From: a virus
Reading direction: 5' to 3' (one strand)
Virus record (IMG/VR): IMGVR_UViG_3300025767_000055
Location: 1 to 37,677 of that record
Length of the DNA stretch: 37,677 nucleotides
In this document: positions 7,320 through 37,677 of the stretch, piece after piece
How positions within the stretch are numbered: the first letter of the stretch is position 1
Layout: every line of letters begins with the position of its first letter
Made by a program: the position numbers and the translations under genes
The notes under the pieces: generated by a model
Told to the model about the DNA's origin: nothing
What the model saw: only the letters and a program-made list of their open reading frames with translations
Databases searched by the model: none

Positions 7320-8159
7320 TTATTTTAGTTTTTTCTCTATTGATCTAAAAACTTCTGTGCCTTCATCTGTTTTAAAGAAAGCTGCCATAGCTGAGTATGG
7401 ATTTTCATCAAACGGAACAGTCATTAGTTTGCGATCATTTGCACCCCACATAAATGTTCTTTGATCCTGAGATATTTTTATGATTCCTTCTTCAGTAGCT
7501 CTAATTGCTACGTTACGAAGTTGAACGTTATCATCACTGGCTAATTCCATAAATAAACTAGGATTACGTTTTGCGAATAATAATAAATCTCTTTTTATTT
7601 CTTTAGAACCCATTATAGATACAGTAGAACCAATTTCAACTCTTAAAATAGCTTCTGCTTGATCTATATCCATATTCTTAGCTGCATTTAATGCATCAAG
7701 TTGTAATTCTAAATCAGTTAATTCATCTGCAGCCTCTAAAACAGCATCAAATTCTTCAAATACTTTACCTTTTTTAGGATGAAATATTGATAATAATTTT
7801 TGTAAATTTTGTTTTTCTTTAGGTACTGTTAGTGTACCGTTTTGAAAAATAATGTGACCTAAAGTAGCCTCACCTTTTTGTTCGCTAACAAATACAGAAT
7901 TTTGATTTGTTGCGTATCTTATTTCTTTTTGTTCCCCTAAAGTAGCATCAAACCATAATAATGGAAACCTACTAGTATGTTTAGAAGCTAATGTATACGT
8001 TAATGGGCTATGAGCTCCAGTTAAATAATAACTTCTATCTTTTATTTCCCATTCCGGTTTAGCGGGAGTTTTAACTTTTTTTTCTATTACTGTTGTGTTA
8101 ACAGTTTCTTCTTGTTGTGGGATGTCAATAACATCATCCACGATTTTCTTTTTTGCCAT
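7320..8159 (-). CDS. Conserved head-associated structural protein of unknown function
   Basis: This 279-aa protein carries motifs WEIKDRSYYLTGAHSPLTYT, FPLLWFDATLGEQKEIRYAT, QKGEATLGHIIFQNG, DIDQAEAILRVEIGS and IKRDLLLFAKRNPSLFMELA. I recall this family directly downstream of major capsid genes in marine Bacteroidota-type phages, but know no assigned function. The N-terminus (about 45 residues) is charged and probably flexible. The rest alternates beta and helical stretches. It follows the capsid gene after a terminator hairpin and so may be made at lower level than the capsid protein. Candidate roles are capsid completion or head-tail joining; this is inferred from position only. Confidence 0.5.
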   Translation of the reverse strand: MAKKKIVDDVIDIPQQEETVNTTVIEKKVKTPAKPEWEIKDRSYYLTGAHSPLTYTLASKHTSRFPLLWFDATLGEQKEIRYATNQNSVFVSEQKGEATLGHIIFQNGTLTVPKEKQNLQKLLSIFHPKKGKVFEEFDAVLEAADELTDLELQLDALNAAKNMDIDQAEAILRVEIGSTVSIMGSKEIKRDLLLFAKRNPSLFMELASDDNVQLRNVAIRATEEGIIKISQDQRTFMWGANDRKLMTVPFDENPYSAMAAFFKTDEGTEVFRSIEKKLK

Positions 8160-10900: not shown

Positions 10901-13312
10901 TTACCTAGGCGTAAATTGTTCTAGGCCAAATCCACCCAGGCTGTCGTTACCGGATGATTCAAAGTTCTTAGGTAATAAATCATTTTGTCTTTGATCTATT
11001 AATTCAGACTGTTGAGTTCCTTGTATACGAACTCTTTTATCTTTTCTGTCTTCAATCTGTCTTTCTTTTTGTGTATCAGCTTGAGCTTTAATTTGAGCTA
11101 ACTGCATTTGATAATTAAATTCTTCCGCCATTAGTTCACGTTTAATTTGAGCTTCAGTTTGTAATCTTTGAATTTCAAATTGTGATTTAGCTTGCTCAAT
11201 ACTTACTTTTTCTTGAGTTAAAGCTTGTTGCTTTTGTACTTCTGCTAACGCAGCAGCTTCTGAGGCTTGAGCATTTGCTTGTGCTTGTGCTTGAATATTA
11301 GCAATTTGCTGTGCCTCTGCTGCTTCTTGTTTTTTCTTTCTTTTAAACTTAAGTAATTGATTGGCTAATTTTAAGTTTTTAATCTCTCTAATATCTATTG
11401 CATCTTCAAGATCAATACCACCAGATTGTAAAGCTACTTGTATGTTTTGTTCAAGCTGTGCTTTTTCTTCATCATCAGGTTCTAACTCTAAATAAATACC
11501 AAAATCATGTAAATTAAGGTTTGAAATTTCTTCTAATGTTTTAACATTAAATGTTGAAATACTATTTTTTAAAGCGTTAGCTGTAAGTGGAAAGCTTAAA
11601 GCATCTGCAATTCTTAAAGAAATATTTTCACATACTCTTAAATATATATACATTCCACCTTGTAATATATGTCTTGTAGCAACATTAGATGCATTAGCAG
11701 CCATTTTTTGCAGACCAACTAAAGCGTTTTTGTCTGGATTACTTCCATCTACTGCTTCATTAAGGCCAGTTACGTCACGTATCATTTGTAAATAATACTG
11801 ATATGTATTTATTAAAGAAGTTATTTTGCCTTGACCAGATGAAGTTGCTAATTCTTGTACAGGTATTTTACCTCTATTTAAATCACCGTCTTGAGTTAAT
11901 GATCTACCAACAATACTACCCGTTTGAAAATACATATTCAATGCTTCAGCAGGATTATAATTAGTTCCGTTACCAAGATCTACTTCCGCTAATCCATCCA
12001 TATCTAAGAATACACCATCAGGAACTATTCTTGACATAACTTGCTGTAGTTTTAAATGAGTTAATTGAATCATATCAGCAAAACTTGTAACTCTGCTAAC
12101 TATTGACTCAATTTTACCTTTATACATTCTTGGTGCAGCAATTGTATAATTCATTTTAACTTTAGTAGTATCAGCATAAGGTCTAGTCATATGCTCAGCT
12201 AATCTCCAGTCTAGCATTGTATTAGTCCCTAATACTTTAGCACCAGAATATAAAACTTCTATACTTCTTGACACTCTTTTAAAGTTGTCATTTTCCGGCG
12301 GATTAAATTCATCTGTTTTTTGAATAACTTTTTCTAATCCACTTTCAGTTTGTTTTATTTTAAATACTTGATTATTATATGTCTTGTATTCAAAGTAGAG
12401 TACTTGAACAGTATTACTATCATAATTTCCCCAGCCAGTAACATATTGGCTGTTGCCAGGCATGTTTTGAATATTTTTTAATTCTTCTTCAGATATATTA
12501 GGAAATTCTTTTTTTAATTCTGGAATTGTTATTGCTTTAATTTCCCCAGCATAATAAATATCTTCAAAATTAGGATCTTCTGTATATGAATAAACTAAAT
12601 AGGATGGGTCTACATAATCAACAGTAATACCGTTGCTTTTATTAAAGCTTGTTTTTGCTGCACCAATACCAATAACAGTTAAATCGTAATTTACTCTTCT
12701 TTTAATTGATTCATATTTATTAAAATCAAGTACATTATTAATAGCTTCTTCTTCTGCTATTTCAATAGCCTCCTTATAACTAGTTTGTAACATTATTTCT
12801 AGTTCTTCTGGCGTTTCTGGCAATTGATCTGCGGGTATAGATGAATTAGAAAAATCTTCTCCTAATATTTGATTACCAATTTGCTGAAGTTCTTGTGTAT
12901 ACATGTCACGTAATACAGCTTTAGCATAATTTGTTTTTTTCTCAATAGATGCTGGATCTTGAGCATACGCTTTTATTTCAACTTCTTTTTCTGATATACC
13001 ATTTACTAAAATATCTACAAACTTTGGTATCACAGGAACTGGTTTCCAATCTAAATTAAGATAAGATAAATCACCATTAATAGATAATTCATCTTTATAT
13101 TTTTGTATTGATTGTTCACCTCTTGCGTATAATCTTAATGAATGAAAATTATTCCAATTAGTTAAATATCTATTACCGCTAGTTCTACCTTGATCAAACC
13201 ATTCTTGTTCTATAGCGTGTGCTACTTGAGTACCATATTCTAAACTAGATTTTTCAGCATCGCTAACTACTTGGCTAGGAAAAGAACTATTAGTATTTGT
13301 TTGTATATTCAT
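10901..13312 (-). CDS. Portal protein
   Basis: This 803-aa protein would form the dodecameric DNA entry channel. The N-terminal half has segments typical of podovirus portals (LTNWNNFHSLRLYARGEQS, NLDWKPVPVIPKFVDILVNG, RRVNYDLTVIGIGAAKTSFN, VDYVDPSYLVYSYTEDPNFE). A stem/clip region follows (SRIVPDGVFLDMDGLAEVDL, IRDVTGLNEAVDGSNPDKNA). Residues about 655-760 are an Ala/Gln-rich helix (ANIQAQAQANAQASEAAALA), as in portals with a long barrel. The length matches crAss-like portals. The gene starts directly after the terL stop with no gap, and the scaffold and capsid genes follow. Confidence is high from combined sequence character and order. Confidence 0.82.
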   Translation of the reverse strand: MNIQTNTNSSFPSQVVSDAEKSSLEYGTQVAHAIEQEWFDQGRTSGNRYLTNWNNFHSLRLYARGEQSIQKYKDELSINGDLSYLNLDWKPVPVIPKFVDILVNGISEKEVEIKAYAQDPASIEKKTNYAKAVLRDMYTQELQQIGNQILGEDFSNSSIPADQLPETPEELEIMLQTSYKEAIEIAEEEAINNVLDFNKYESIKRRVNYDLTVIGIGAAKTSFNKSNGITVDYVDPSYLVYSYTEDPNFEDIYYAGEIKAITIPELKKEFPNISEEELKNIQNMPGNSQYVTGWGNYDSNTVQVLYFEYKTYNNQVFKIKQTESGLEKVIQKTDEFNPPENDNFKRVSRSIEVLYSGAKVLGTNTMLDWRLAEHMTRPYADTTKVKMNYTIAAPRMYKGKIESIVSRVTSFADMIQLTHLKLQQVMSRIVPDGVFLDMDGLAEVDLGNGTNYNPAEALNMYFQTGSIVGRSLTQDGDLNRGKIPVQELATSSGQGKITSLINTYQYYLQMIRDVTGLNEAVDGSNPDKNALVGLQKMAANASNVATRHILQGGMYIYLRVCENISLRIADALSFPLTANALKNSISTFNVKTLEEISNLNLHDFGIYLELEPDDEEKAQLEQNIQVALQSGGIDLEDAIDIREIKNLKLANQLLKFKRKKKQEAAEAQQIANIQAQAQANAQASEAAALAEVQKQQALTQEKVSIEQAKSQFEIQRLQTEAQIKRELMAEEFNYQMQLAQIKAQADTQKERQIEDRKDKRVRIQGTQQSELIDQRQNDLLPKNFESSGNDSLGGFGLEQFTPR

Positions 13313-15520
13313 TTAAAGTATAATTTTTGAGGTACCACCATCATTATTGTATTTTTTAAAACCTAAATTAAAACTTGGTCTTATTGTTTTATTAATAGGT
13401 GTATACCTATTTTTATTACAAGCCATTATAGCAAGACCGGAGCTAATAGAAGCATCATGAGCAGTTCTTTTGTTTATATTGAATCTAGCCCAATCGTTTA
13501 ATGTTCTTTGAAAATACATATCTCCATAGCCTTCACCTAAAAATCCTACATAAGTTTCAATGTACGATTCAATTGCTGCTGCGTGAGCTTGTTTTATATC
13601 TTCACTAGAGTTTGGTATTCCACCTATTTCCTTTTCAGTTACAGATAATTTATTCCAAATTTTATCCGGTCTATTCATTGAAAACCCTCTGTAACCTCTT
13701 CTTTTTAAATAATATAATAGTCTTGGTTTGTTATTCTCTGCTAATATTGGCATTCCATAAAATACCAAAGCCATTAAAACATCTTCAAAAAATATTTCAG
13801 CAGTTTGTGGTCGGGCAATGTATTCTAAAAAGAAATGGTTTGGCGGAACATCTTCCATTGAAAATTTAGTTAAACCATGTAGAGATCCATTAGATGCTCT
13901 TGTATCAACTGTACCCGATATATCATAACTATCACAGCCAAATGCTCCTAGGTCTTCATTGCCAGGATGTTTCAATCCATTCTTTATTATCACTCGGTTT
14001 TGAAGGTTTTTATTAGGAACCCAAGAAACTTTAAATCTACCTGTTTTATTTGGTACAAATATTACCCTTGTATCTTTTAATCCATTCTCCCATTGAAAAC
14101 TTCCTGTAGTAACTACAGATGTGTTTCTTAAATCTTCGTTATAATCTACTTGCTCATATATTTTTGCTAGATTAAATAAAGATTGTTTTGTTTCATCCCT
14201 AAAAGCATGTTGCTCTGTTCTGGGAAATTGACGATAAAATTCATTTAAACCGTCTTGATCACTTTTTAATCCTTCAACTTCGTTGTCCCAGTGCTCAATA
14301 ACTCCAATGTCAATCCATTGTCCATCAACTCCTTTGATCGGTTCTTCTGGAGTTTCGAATACAGGTAATCCATAAGTATCAATGAATCCTTCGAAGTTCC
14401 ATTCCATAGGTATGAACAAACTATATAGTCCTGAGCTAGTCTGTCCATTGCGGTTTCTTTTGGTAACATTTGATTCGTCATAAAGTTTTTTAAAGTTATT
14501 TCCTCCTTTATCTAAAGCATTTGATGTTGAACCCATCATACACTTACCTATAATTTTACTACCTAATCTTAATGTTGTTTTTGTAACCCTCCAGTTGTTG
14601 AGGATATTATCTGGCCTCTCCCATTTCCCTGATTCGTCGTGTACGAGGAGCCTAAGTTTCTCCCCATCATATGAGTTGTCTCCTGTATTCTTCCAGTCGA
14701 TTGTTGTGTCAAGCCCTTCAAGTTCTTCTCTGGTCTCTTTGGCAGTGATGGACTTACGGGTAAGTTTTGAGGCGGGGACACGATACGCGAGTTCAGTCTT
14801 GGGACGGTCCATTCCGTCCTGTATTGGCTTAAAAAAGAATGGATAGTTAACGGATATTGGAACAACCTTGTCTGTAAACATCTTTTTAGCATCAGCCCCT
14901 GTTTTACTGAGTATGCCGAAACGGGCATCAGAAGTGCTTGTGGCCTGATTAACTGTCTCGGAACTGGACATAAAACTAAATCCCGATCTTCTATTCTTAA
15001 GGTAACACATCCCGTATGCTCTTGTATCGGCTTTGCAAGCTTCCCAAAAGATGAAGAAAATTCTGTTTGCTTCCCTATAATCTGGTCTCCCCACATCAAT
15101 CTTGGTCCACTGCAAGTACATGTAATGAGTGCCAGTAATATAAGTTGGAACTTTATTATTATAGAACCAATGCCCCTCATCACGTTTTGTAAACTCATCA
15201 TCAATATACCCATACCATTTATTTTTAAAATTATCAGGGTATGTTTCCCAATCAAAAACAGTTTTTATTCTGCTTAAATCTTTAGGATATTCACTTGCCA
15301 CCCATTTATTTTCAGTATTAATAACATCTTTAGGTACAAGGGGCAAAGCTATTCTTAGATTTTGTATTTCTAATATCTCGCCTATTTTGCCTGTTTTACT
15401 AATAACTACAATATCGTGTTCTTTATTGTAACCATATTCCCATTTACCATATCGATTATTTTTATTTATAATCTTTTTCTTTATGGGATCAACTGTTTTT
15501 ACAAGAGTTTGCTCGTACAC
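13313..15520 (-). CDS. terL: Terminase large subunit (packaging ATPase and nuclease)
   Basis: This 735-aa protein packages DNA into the prohead. A deviant Walker A lies at KNRRSGFSF (175-183). Walker B is LRLLVHDE (289-296; D295, E296). In the C-terminal RNase H-like nuclease, candidate metal ligands are D530 and D533 in FGCDSYD, E579/D580 in IFFED, and D689 in TAHDAS. The start is GTG at 15520, read as TAGTG with the stop of the 90-aa gene, implying translational coupling. Codons between about 14240 and 15125 are far more GC-rich than the rest (hand counts about 38-55% against 25-30% per 60-base line, with a dip at 14461-14580), which marks a mosaic gene. The long open frames on both strands in that segment are by-products of its composition. 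Confidence 0.85.
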   Translation of the reverse strand: MYEQTLVKTVDPIKKKIINKNNRYGKWEYGYNKEHDIVVISKTGKIGEILEIQNLRIALPLVPKDVINTENKWVASEYPKDLSRIKTVFDWETYPDNFKNKWYGYIDDEFTKRDEGHWFYNNKVPTYITGTHYMYLQWTKIDVGRPDYREANRIFFIFWEACKADTRAYGMCYLKNRRSGFSFMSSSETVNQATSTSDARFGILSKTGADAKKMFTDKVVPISVNYPFFFKPIQDGMDRPKTELAYRVPASKLTRKSITAKETREELEGLDTTIDWKNTGDNSYDGEKLRLLVHDESGKWERPDNILNNWRVTKTTLRLGSKIIGKCMMGSTSNALDKGGNNFKKLYDESNVTKRNRNGQTSSGLYSLFIPMEWNFEGFIDTYGLPVFETPEEPIKGVDGQWIDIGVIEHWDNEVEGLKSDQDGLNEFYRQFPRTEQHAFRDETKQSLFNLAKIYEQVDYNEDLRNTSVVTTGSFQWENGLKDTRVIFVPNKTGRFKVSWVPNKNLQNRVIIKNGLKHPGNEDLGAFGCDSYDISGTVDTRASNGSLHGLTKFSMEDVPPNHFFLEYIARPQTAEIFFEDVLMALVFYGMPILAENNKPRLLYYLKRRGYRGFSMNRPDKIWNKLSVTEKEIGGIPNSSEDIKQAHAAAIESYIETYVGFLGEGYGDMYFQRTLNDWARFNINKRTAHDASISSGLAIMACNKNRYTPINKTIRPSFNLGFKKYNNDGGTSKIIL
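14240..15125. other. GC-rich mosaic segment inside terL
   Basis: Hand counts per 60-base line give 45% (14281), 47% (14581), 47% (14641), 48% (14701), 55% (14761), 47% (14881), 43% (15001) and 45% (15061). Flanking lines give 25-28% (13321, 14461, 14521) and 33% (15121). The terL frame runs straight through, with codons such as CTC, GTC, CCC, GCC and ACC replacing the A/T-ending codons used elsewhere. It covers the Walker A and Walker B motifs and the linker to the nuclease. It looks like a segment taken by homologous recombination from a phage with different base composition. Confidence 0.65.
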
Positions 15521-36498: not shown

Positions 36499-36885
36499 AT
36501 TGTTGTCTTTAATATATAACTTATATTCACATGTAAAAATAACTTCTTACAATAGTGTGACGTTAGCCCCCTATTATATAATCTTAACAGGCTATTGTCG
36601 CATTACGCTGTAATTTTTTGTAAGATATAGAGAGTTCTGGGGTTATACGCTAATATACTGATACCCAGTACTTTACGGAAACCATTTTCATTTCAACCCA
36701 CTCCCCTGGTTTTCAGGTAGTTATGGAAAAATGTTTTAGCTTTTTGTATTTTTGTGTGTAGCTTTTGGAAAATTACGTAGTGATTTGCTGTACTAATCTG
36801 TTGTAACCTCGCCTACACCCTGTTACCGTTTCGGTTTGTAACCTCAGCACTTGCTTCGAACCGATCTGTGTTTTTTACATACTAA

Positions 36886-36910
36886 ACACGGTATCATTTG
36901 GATAATATAG
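36886..36910 (+). promoter_or_regulatory. Bipartite early promoter-like element, copy 1
   Basis: AACACG followed by GTATCATT and then TGGATAATATA (one base of spacing is uncertain in my reading of this copy). No open reading frame begins before the next copy 79 bp later, so it may drive a leader transcript or act as a binding site for the same factor. Confidence 0.55.
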
Positions 36911-36964
36911 TTAGGCTCCGACCTCAACCACACCAATCAACAGTAGTATATTTTTTACAACCTT

Positions 36965-36997
36965 AACACGAACCTCTTTGGATAATATAAGTGTAAC
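36965..36997 (+). promoter_or_regulatory. Bipartite early promoter-like element, copy 2
   Basis: AACACG at 36965-36970, eight free bases, TGGATAATATAA at 36979-36990, then GTGTAAC. It lies 24 bp before the ATG at 37021. It is preceded by TTTTTTACAACCTT, which is almost repeated before copy 3 (TTAATTACAACCTT). Confidence 0.7.
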
Positions 36998-37020
36998 AAA
37001 TAATAATTAAAACTATAACT

Positions 37021-37170
37021 ATGTCTACTACTAAACAACTTAAAAAATTAATCTCTAAAGTATCAAATAAAAAATCTTTAAACCAAGAATATTCTATAGA
37101 ACTTGTTCTTAAAAAATTAAATAAAATATACTTAGCAGAGTTGGAGTATCAAGAGGAATTAAATAAATAA
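37021..37170 (+). CDS. 49-aa early peptide, unknown
   Basis: The frame reads MSTTKQLKKLISKVSNKKSL, then NQEYSIELVLKKLNKIYLAE and LEYQEELNK. It is a charged, helix-forming, lysine-rich peptide with no known family. It has a promoter-like element directly upstream and an A-rich leader (AATTAAAACTATAACT). The stop is followed by only 14 bp before the next element, so each small gene seems to carry its own promoter. Probable early host-directed or regulatory product, inferred from position. Confidence 0.65.
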   Translation: MSTTKQLKKLISKVSNKKSLNQEYSIELVLKKLNKIYLAELEYQEELNK

Positions 37171-37184
37171 TTAATTACAACCTT

Positions 37185-37217
37185 AACACGACCTCAACTG
37201 GATAATATAAATGTAAC
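37185..37217 (+). promoter_or_regulatory. Bipartite early promoter-like element, copy 3
   Basis: AACACG at 37185-37190, eight free bases (ACCTCAAC), TGGATAATATAA at 37199-37210, then ATGTAAC. The start codon of the next gene is 15 bp downstream, so the transcript leader is very short. Confidence 0.7.
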
Positions 37218-37231
37218 TAAAAACAAACAAC

Positions 37232-37363
37232 ATGAAAAATATTACAATTACACTTGAAACACACTTAAGTAAAAAAGAAATAAATAAAGTATTAGAAAGA
37301 ATGCTTTGGGATAGTGAATTTTCTTATGAGTTTGAAAATGCTGATTGGGAATTTACAAAGTAA
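37232..37363 (+). CDS. 43-aa acidic early peptide, unknown
   Basis: The frame reads MKNITITLETHLSKKEINKV, then LERMLWDSEFSYEFENADWE and FTK. The N-terminal half is a beta strand plus helix and the C-terminal half is acidic and aromatic (two Trp, three Phe, one Tyr), a composition seen in small phage inhibitors of host enzymes. No family is recognised. The TAA stop overlaps the first base of the next promoter-like element (AACACG from 37363), an economical fusion of coding end and control signal. Confidence 0.65.
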   Translation: MKNITITLETHLSKKEINKVLERMLWDSEFSYEFENADWEFTK

Positions 37364-37395
37364 ACACGATGCTACTTGGATAATATAAATGTAAC
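37363..37395 (+). promoter_or_regulatory. Bipartite early promoter-like element, copy 4
   Basis: AACACG at 37363-37368, eight free bases (ATGCTACT), TGGATAATATAA at 37377-37388, then ATGTAAC. It begins on the last base of the preceding stop codon and lies 15 bp from the next ATG. Confidence 0.7.
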
Positions 37396-37622: not shown

Positions 37623-37677
37623 ATGAGTAATGAATTAAAACTAAAAATAGAAAAACAAAATGCAAGAACAGAAAGGG
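37623..37677 (+). CDS. Early gene cut by the window edge
   Basis: ATG at 37623 opens MSNELKLKIEKQNARTER and runs off the window, so only 18 residues are visible. The A-rich leader (AAATAAACAACAACCACT) matches the three genes before it. The charged, helix-forming start gives no family information. Confidence 0.5.
   Translation, partial: MSNELKLKIEKQNARTER

Follow-up and report, generated by a model that had tools for sequence, protein, structure and literature searches.

A rigid bipartite element at the right end of the window (the whole stretch of 37,677 nucleotides analysed here) is best explained, with a probability of roughly 0.58 by our estimate, as a class of sigma-type promoters that the host core RNA polymerase would read together with a phage-encoded sigma-70-family factor of ~250 residues. 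Judged by where it occurs in sequence databases, the motif appears to be private to one marine phage group and not to be a host promoter.

The window is a fragment of a phage genome. It covers the structural (leftward) arm and ~800 bases at the start of the rightward arm, and the replication block, a giant gene and the sigma gene lie outside this partial contig. Its source is a marine flavobacterial virus. Besides GroEL/GroES, the window encodes portal, terminase and capsid families also seen in elemo and in phages of the Pervagoviridae, which are classified outside Crassvirales; the polymerase hallmark of Crassvirales is missing in its relatives, and a match to the C-terminal domain of the crassvirus muzzle is present in the window itself (1.5e-6). 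By these protein matches, the window phage appears to be related to crAss-like phages. Its portal is 52% identical to that of MW202828, 43% to that of Flavobacterium phage elemoA, 42.5% to that of Maribacter phage Panino and 32–33% to those of phi38:1 and Calle. The portal tree splits motif-bearing phages from motif-less isolates and pairs the window with G028 (support 100/100), a genome with eight motif sites, the sigma gene and the sigma-like domain of the giant protein. Some of the contigs L126–L170 belong to the same phage group. The motif is absent from the isolates phi14:2, phi38:1, elemoA, Panino and MW202828, and the phage isolate collection has no member of the motif-bearing group.

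Geometry and placement of the element

The sequence-only reading had proposed a two-block pattern with exact spacing, with three full copies before ATGs and one further core copy upstream, and this is what the window contains. The core AACACG-N8-TGGATAATATA has exactly four exact copies, all on the plus strand at the right end (Table 1). A core scan allowing up to 3 mismatches gave 4 matches versus 0.20 expected for the 37.7-kb window, and neither strand of the window holds a further copy. Exact matches to the full pattern AACACG-N8-TGGATAATATAA-(A/G)TGTAAC lie at 36965–36997, 37185–37217 and 37363–37395; these 3 matches compare with 0 in 100 shuffles. Two details of the original description needed adjustment. 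The full copies lie within the proposed extent of 36886–37395, but the first copy starts at 36885; and the proposed core is real, but the element is longer, with a TTACA box at a fixed distance upstream. The claim that a copy stands in front of each early gene is true of three small ORFs (49, 43 and 44 aa) but not of a fourth ATG at 37623, whose ORF is cut by the contig end and which has no copy in front of it. Gene order is what suggests that these small genes are early. The stop codon of the second small ORF is the TAA inside the copy 4 element. No ORF lies behind copy 1, and copy 2 follows at a fixed 80 nt. This spacing (79–80 nt) is kept in four related contigs (L009, L026, L047 and L054). 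In the same contigs and in the window, the stretch corresponding to 36885–36964 also has a conserved GTTAGGCTCCGAC downstream of copy 1.

Table 1. Coordinates of the features discussed, numbered from the first base of the window
Feature	Position	Strand	Remarks
Portal protein	10901..13312	-	phrog_6547, 5.8e-140; used for phage placement
Terminase large subunit	13313..15520	-	phrog_6681, 2.5e-164
47-bp palindrome, TGTGACGTTAG...CTATTGTCGCA	36556..36602		between late (leftward) and early (rightward) blocks
Motif copy 1, AACACGGTATCATTTGGATAATATA	36885..36909	+	followed by GTTAGGCTCCGACC
Motif copy 2 with upstream TTACA box, TTACAACCTTAACACG-N8-TGGATAATATAAGTGTAAC	36955..36997	+	before ATG 37021
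Small ORF, 49 aa	37021..37170	+	behind copy 2
Motif copy 3, TTACAACCTTAACACG-N8-TGGATAATATAAATGTAAC	37175..37217	+	before ATG 37232
Small ORF, 43 aa	37232..37363	+	behind copy 3
Motif copy 4, TTACAAAGTAAACACG-N8-TGGATAATATAAATGTAAC	37353..37395	+	before ATG 37410
Small ORF, 44 aa	37410..37544	+	behind copy 4

A motif scan of IMG/VR returned 56 stretches, and the AATACG variant adds more among the matches listed. The related viral contigs contain at least hundreds of copies, located in the small-gene block of a single phage group. The consensus of 229 distinct sites spans ~40 nt and reads TTACA-N3-TAAA(C/T)ACGA-N7-(T/C)GGATAATATA-N2-TG(T/A)AA, or in short form TTACA-N3-TAAA(C/T)ACGA-N7-TGGATAATATA-N2-TGTAA; the search pattern imposes its own letters on this profile, but not the flanking blocks, the spacing or most of the further copies per contig. 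An identical 9-nt gap separates AAYACG from GGATAATA in 423 of 431 pairs, and ACA lies exactly 5 nt before AAYACG at 346 of 392 sites. The first C of AACACG is either C or T (59/41%), and TAATAT never varies among the sites, in part because the search pattern required it.

The placement of the copies is just as regular. In nearly all of 49 records they lie on one strand, usually 3–10 per record, versus 0–3 for a reversed control pattern. In the five long relatives G005, G019, G020, G039 and G043, almost all copies are confined to one 3–5 kb block of small genes, which runs divergently from the structural genes and lies ahead of the replication genes. The motif is not found equally within genes: 206 of 225 distinct sites in the related contigs are outside ORFs, and 155 of the 225 have a same-strand ATG ORF within 40 nt, as opposed to 4.9% of random positions. 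The TAA of the element is often the stop codon of the upstream gene. Moreover, some positions show lineage variants common to the copies of one genome (position 2: 0.70 versus 0.52), as expected of sites with a common reader. Geometry, position, strand and proximity to ATGs all speak for a promoter, and it is on this basis that we infer promoter function.

A sigma-70-family gene accompanying the motif

A Pfam scan of the proteins of G005 gave a match to Sigma70_r2. Among 34 records, the Pfam sigma family was detected in 24 of 29 that bear the motif and in none of the five motif-less isolates. When a profile built from 25 such proteins was applied to motif-bearing records of at least 50 kb, the sigma gene was found in 48 of 51, again with 0 of 5 for the motif-less isolates. 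The three exceptions are contigs cut off at the locus or short of it: G019 starts inside the primase gene, which is downstream of sigma in G005 and G028, while G053 and G055 end inside the motif block. Thus, the gene is present in 48 of the 48 records that reach the locus, and the proposal that a phage sigma-like factor reads the motif has become likely. Against PDB, the profile matched SigA, RpoD and FliA at 1e-12 to 1e-10 over regions 2 and 4, and the PHROG family "RNA polymerase sigma factor" was matched at 2.4e-22. The G005 copy scores 3.9e-5 for Pfam region 2 and 8.9e-4 for region 4, each just under the curated cut-off; other copies are above the region 2 cut-off. By these profile matches, the ~250-aa protein is a bona fide sigma-70-family factor. 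It is the presumptive cognate reader of the motif, and the genome from which the window derives presumably has the gene, as its nearest relative G028 does. One gain of motif and sigma together fits the portal tree; given such a possible single gain, their co-occurrence counts as about one event and is weak proof of function.

If the phage factor is the reader, its region 2 would sit on the GGATAATATA block, with TAATAT as the -10 hexamer (T-12 A-11 ... T-7), and its region 4 on the TTACAnnnTAAAYACGA block, around -40 to -24. Transcription would then start ~7 bases after TAATAT, at about 36995, 37215 and 37393, and each copy would drive a single small gene of the early block or a few of them. 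Some points count against this explanation. At some sites the ATG lies 5–7 nt after the motif, which would give near-leaderless mRNAs. In addition, sigma factors encoded by other phages tend to act on middle or late genes.

The sigma gene follows the motif block at a distance of 3–6 kb, on the same strand and behind an HTH gene, and in G005 no motif copy directly precedes it; therefore, something else must start transcription first. Candidates for this first firing would be the sigma-like domain of the giant protein (see below), weak use of TAATAT by the host holoenzyme, and a 47-bp palindrome. The palindrome (consensus TGYGACRWTAG...CTAWYGTCRCA, 46–48 bp, with an AT-rich centre) occurs two or more times per genome, for example at G005:C1:2512 and 56171 and at G020:C1:14991 and 21742. 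In relatives its second copy precedes the operon of the HTH and sigma genes, ~640 nt before sigma, and none of the five motif-less isolates has it. It may be an operator, a divergent promoter or an origin. A different palindrome, the perfect 16-bp GTGTCGTTAACGACAC, stands before at least six rightward genes of MW202828 (L065), a relative with neither the motif nor the small sigma.

On the late side, a de novo promoter search (EM) scored slightly above shuffles and was unconvincing, turning up T-rich TTATATTATATC stretches and hairpins. Hairpin-plus-T terminators together with TTATATTATATC are seen just before the ATG of a conserved late gene (G020:C1:52511, G043:C1:18542, G039:C1:53659 and 7320–8159 in the window), and a late signal may be hidden at these sites.

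A sigma-like domain in a giant protein

In motif-bearing phages, the structural block ends with a gene for a giant protein of 1755–3346 aa (2395 aa in G005), in which the first ~110 residues of a conserved segment resemble sigma region 2. Aligned with phage sigmas by hhalign, the domain gave an E-value of 0.0012, in register with region 2, and its four best PDB profile matches are sigma factors (E 0.06–0.28). An AlphaFold model of the domain has a pLDDT of 89 and a pTM of 0.81. With the 111-aa domain as a query, Foldseek ranked sigma factors in all ten top places, at E-values of 0.36 or worse, the best being RpoS region 2 (TM 0.55/0.62, probability 0.99). A fold search with a 307-aa segment produced no usable match owing to the uncertain placement of its two halves. 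The sequence and fold lines are each weak to moderate, but taken together they make homology of the modeled domain to sigma region 2 likely. The giant protein showed no recognisable sigma region 4. An HExxH-like stretch, LHEYFHA, lies before the sigma-like domain in the G005 protein (P0001); it is conserved in G020 (LHEYTHA) but altered in G039 (YHEISHN), and possibly marks a protease.

This domain is the only candidate identified here that could act before any phage gene is expressed. Conceivably, it enters the cell with the DNA and steers the host core polymerase to the early promoters, leaving the small sigma to serve later genes. Such a virion-delivered sigma would account for how transcription starts up when host-type promoters are missing, and the giant genes of elemo and phi38:1, which occupy the same place and share N-terminal similarity, are annotated as structural proteins. 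However, the domain was detected in 37 of the 51 motif-bearing records and not in the other 14, including G019, in which the giant ORF is complete, and a weak match also occurs in the motif-less MW202828. It thus tracks the motif less closely than the small sigma does. Together with the Foldseek E-values and the lack of a recognised region 4, this makes virion delivery rather improbable, though less so than any other alternative to the small sigma as reader. Taken one step further, the packaging of a polymerase would have been replaced by the packaging of a sigma: the ejected giant protein would capture the host core polymerase and fire the strict promoters at once, needing neither a polymerase of its own nor a host-type promoter, after which the small sigma would take over. 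We regard this scenario as speculative, with a chance of about one in five.

Other possible readers and known systems

The promoter of the primary sigma factor of Bacteroidota/Flavobacteriia is TTG ... TAnnTTTG, with TAnnTTTG read at -12 to -5 by the flavobacterial factor (PMC9723704). The phage motif had been claimed to be unlike this consensus, and indeed neither of its blocks matches: there is no TAnnTTTG -7 box and no TTG near -33. Moreover, host-type promoters seem to be missing from motif-bearing phages. Upstream of genes, TAnnTTTG occurs 5 times in nine such phages (window included) versus ~6 expected, and 50 times in five motif-less isolates versus ~8 expected; a first-order Markov background and mechanically called ORFs make these figures approximate, though the difference between the two groups is wide. 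None of the four F. psychrophilum sigma motifs considered (TAnnTTTG, TAnnTTGY, a CGT box and a sigma-54 type) resembles the phage motif (PMC9723704).

Strict motif matches are likewise absent from 257 Gb of bacterial and archaeal genomes (84,980 species), in which the relaxed pattern has three matches. The first belongs to a phage contig that carries four or more copies. The second (L292; contig QCKH01000009.1 of a single-cell genome of Prochlorococcus) resembles a Bacteroidota T4-like phage and combines one motif copy with a gene related to early genes of the motif-bearing phages; by sequence, a promoter–gene cassette seems to have moved between phages. The third is a single exact copy of the relaxed pattern on a bacterial chromosome (L293:323-356; CALSQD010000002.1, a Flavobacteriales MAG), ~100 nt before a TerB-family gene and beside ParA/ParB. 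It could belong to a host gene switched on by infection, or be a relic. This chromosomal match, together with the key -10 positions kept in TAATAT, is what a primary or alternative host sigma factor would have in its favour as the reader; but the 1.9-Mb genome in question has one copy only, even at up to 3 mismatches, and with the absence of strict matches and the dissimilar F. psychrophilum motifs we consider a host reader unlikely.

The motif had also been suggested to be read by a phage-carried RNA polymerase. The crAss-like phage phi14:2 packages a DFDxD polymerase that serves its early genes (PMC10136315, PMC10770324), and motif-bearing phages too have a giant gene at the end of the structural block. 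However, no DFDxD was found in ORFs of at least 400 aa in G005 and G028 or in the giant proteins of G005, G020, G039 and G043, whereas the same scan recovered DFDID in phi14:2, which speaks against a crAss-type polymerase in the giant gene. A Pfam search for T7-type polymerases had no match in 54 records; this is weak evidence, as the search had no positive control and the family was matched nowhere. Large RNA polymerase genes outside the window, suggested as something to look for, were not detected in the relatives examined closely. A polymerase too divergent for both searches is conceivable, but these results make a packaged crAss-type enzyme, or any other phage polymerase, a very unlikely reader.

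Least probable of all, and hardly credible, is that the motif is a repeated junction and not a promoter (an operator, a translation leader or a site of cassette-shuffling recombination): the spacer ACCTCAAC is identical at sites in several different genomes, which together with the T4-like contig and its early-region gene indicates that cassettes move with the motif, but the conserved blocks occupy -10-like and -35-like places with the spacer left free, copy 1 has no gene, and the RNA of the motif region shows no excess of structure over shuffles (z 0.26). Searches for Rfam families and tRNAs at the motif site found none.

On the reading as a sigma-type promoter, the element defines, for a large group of uncultured marine phages, a promoter class together with its probable sigma, and makes the early genes of the group findable by pattern alone. 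It also singles out a clade whose host-type promoters have dropped below detection. Should the virion deliver the giant protein's sigma-like domain, this would represent a new way to seize host transcription, with a bearing on how infection starts in crAss-related phages that lack a packaged polymerase. In the open-access literature we found no account of the motif, of a sigma factor encoded by this group, or of a sigma domain carried in the virion.

Phage sigma cascades, such as those involving SPO1 gp28 and T4 gp55, are among the closest precedents for the proposed reader. In these, as in the sigma-bearing group 2 jumbo phages (PMC7824862), a phage sigma redirects the host core polymerase to promoters unlike those of the host, and the same is proposed here. 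Their sigmas serve middle or late genes, whereas the only strict motif found in our group marks an early-type block; in addition, and unlike in those cascades, host-type promoters are missing altogether. Thermus phage P23-45 has an AT-rich early promoter motif for its virion RNA polymerase (PMC10770324). The resemblance lies in a strict motif that precedes the first genes and is limited to relatives encoding the reader, but that reader is a virion polymerase, whereas the motif-bearing phages have a sigma factor and no polymerase was found in them. They share with phi14:2 a related structural module, the divergent early/late layout and a giant gene after the structural block; phi14:2, however, has neither motif nor sigma, and they have no detected DFDxD polymerase. 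Like the promoter of the Bacteroidota primary sigma, the motif has two blocks at comparable positions before AT-rich leaders, but neither block matches and its spacing and letters are far stricter. Phage sigmas with promoters of their own are known; what is new is a sigma linked to an early-type block in phages whose host-type promoters have become undetectable.
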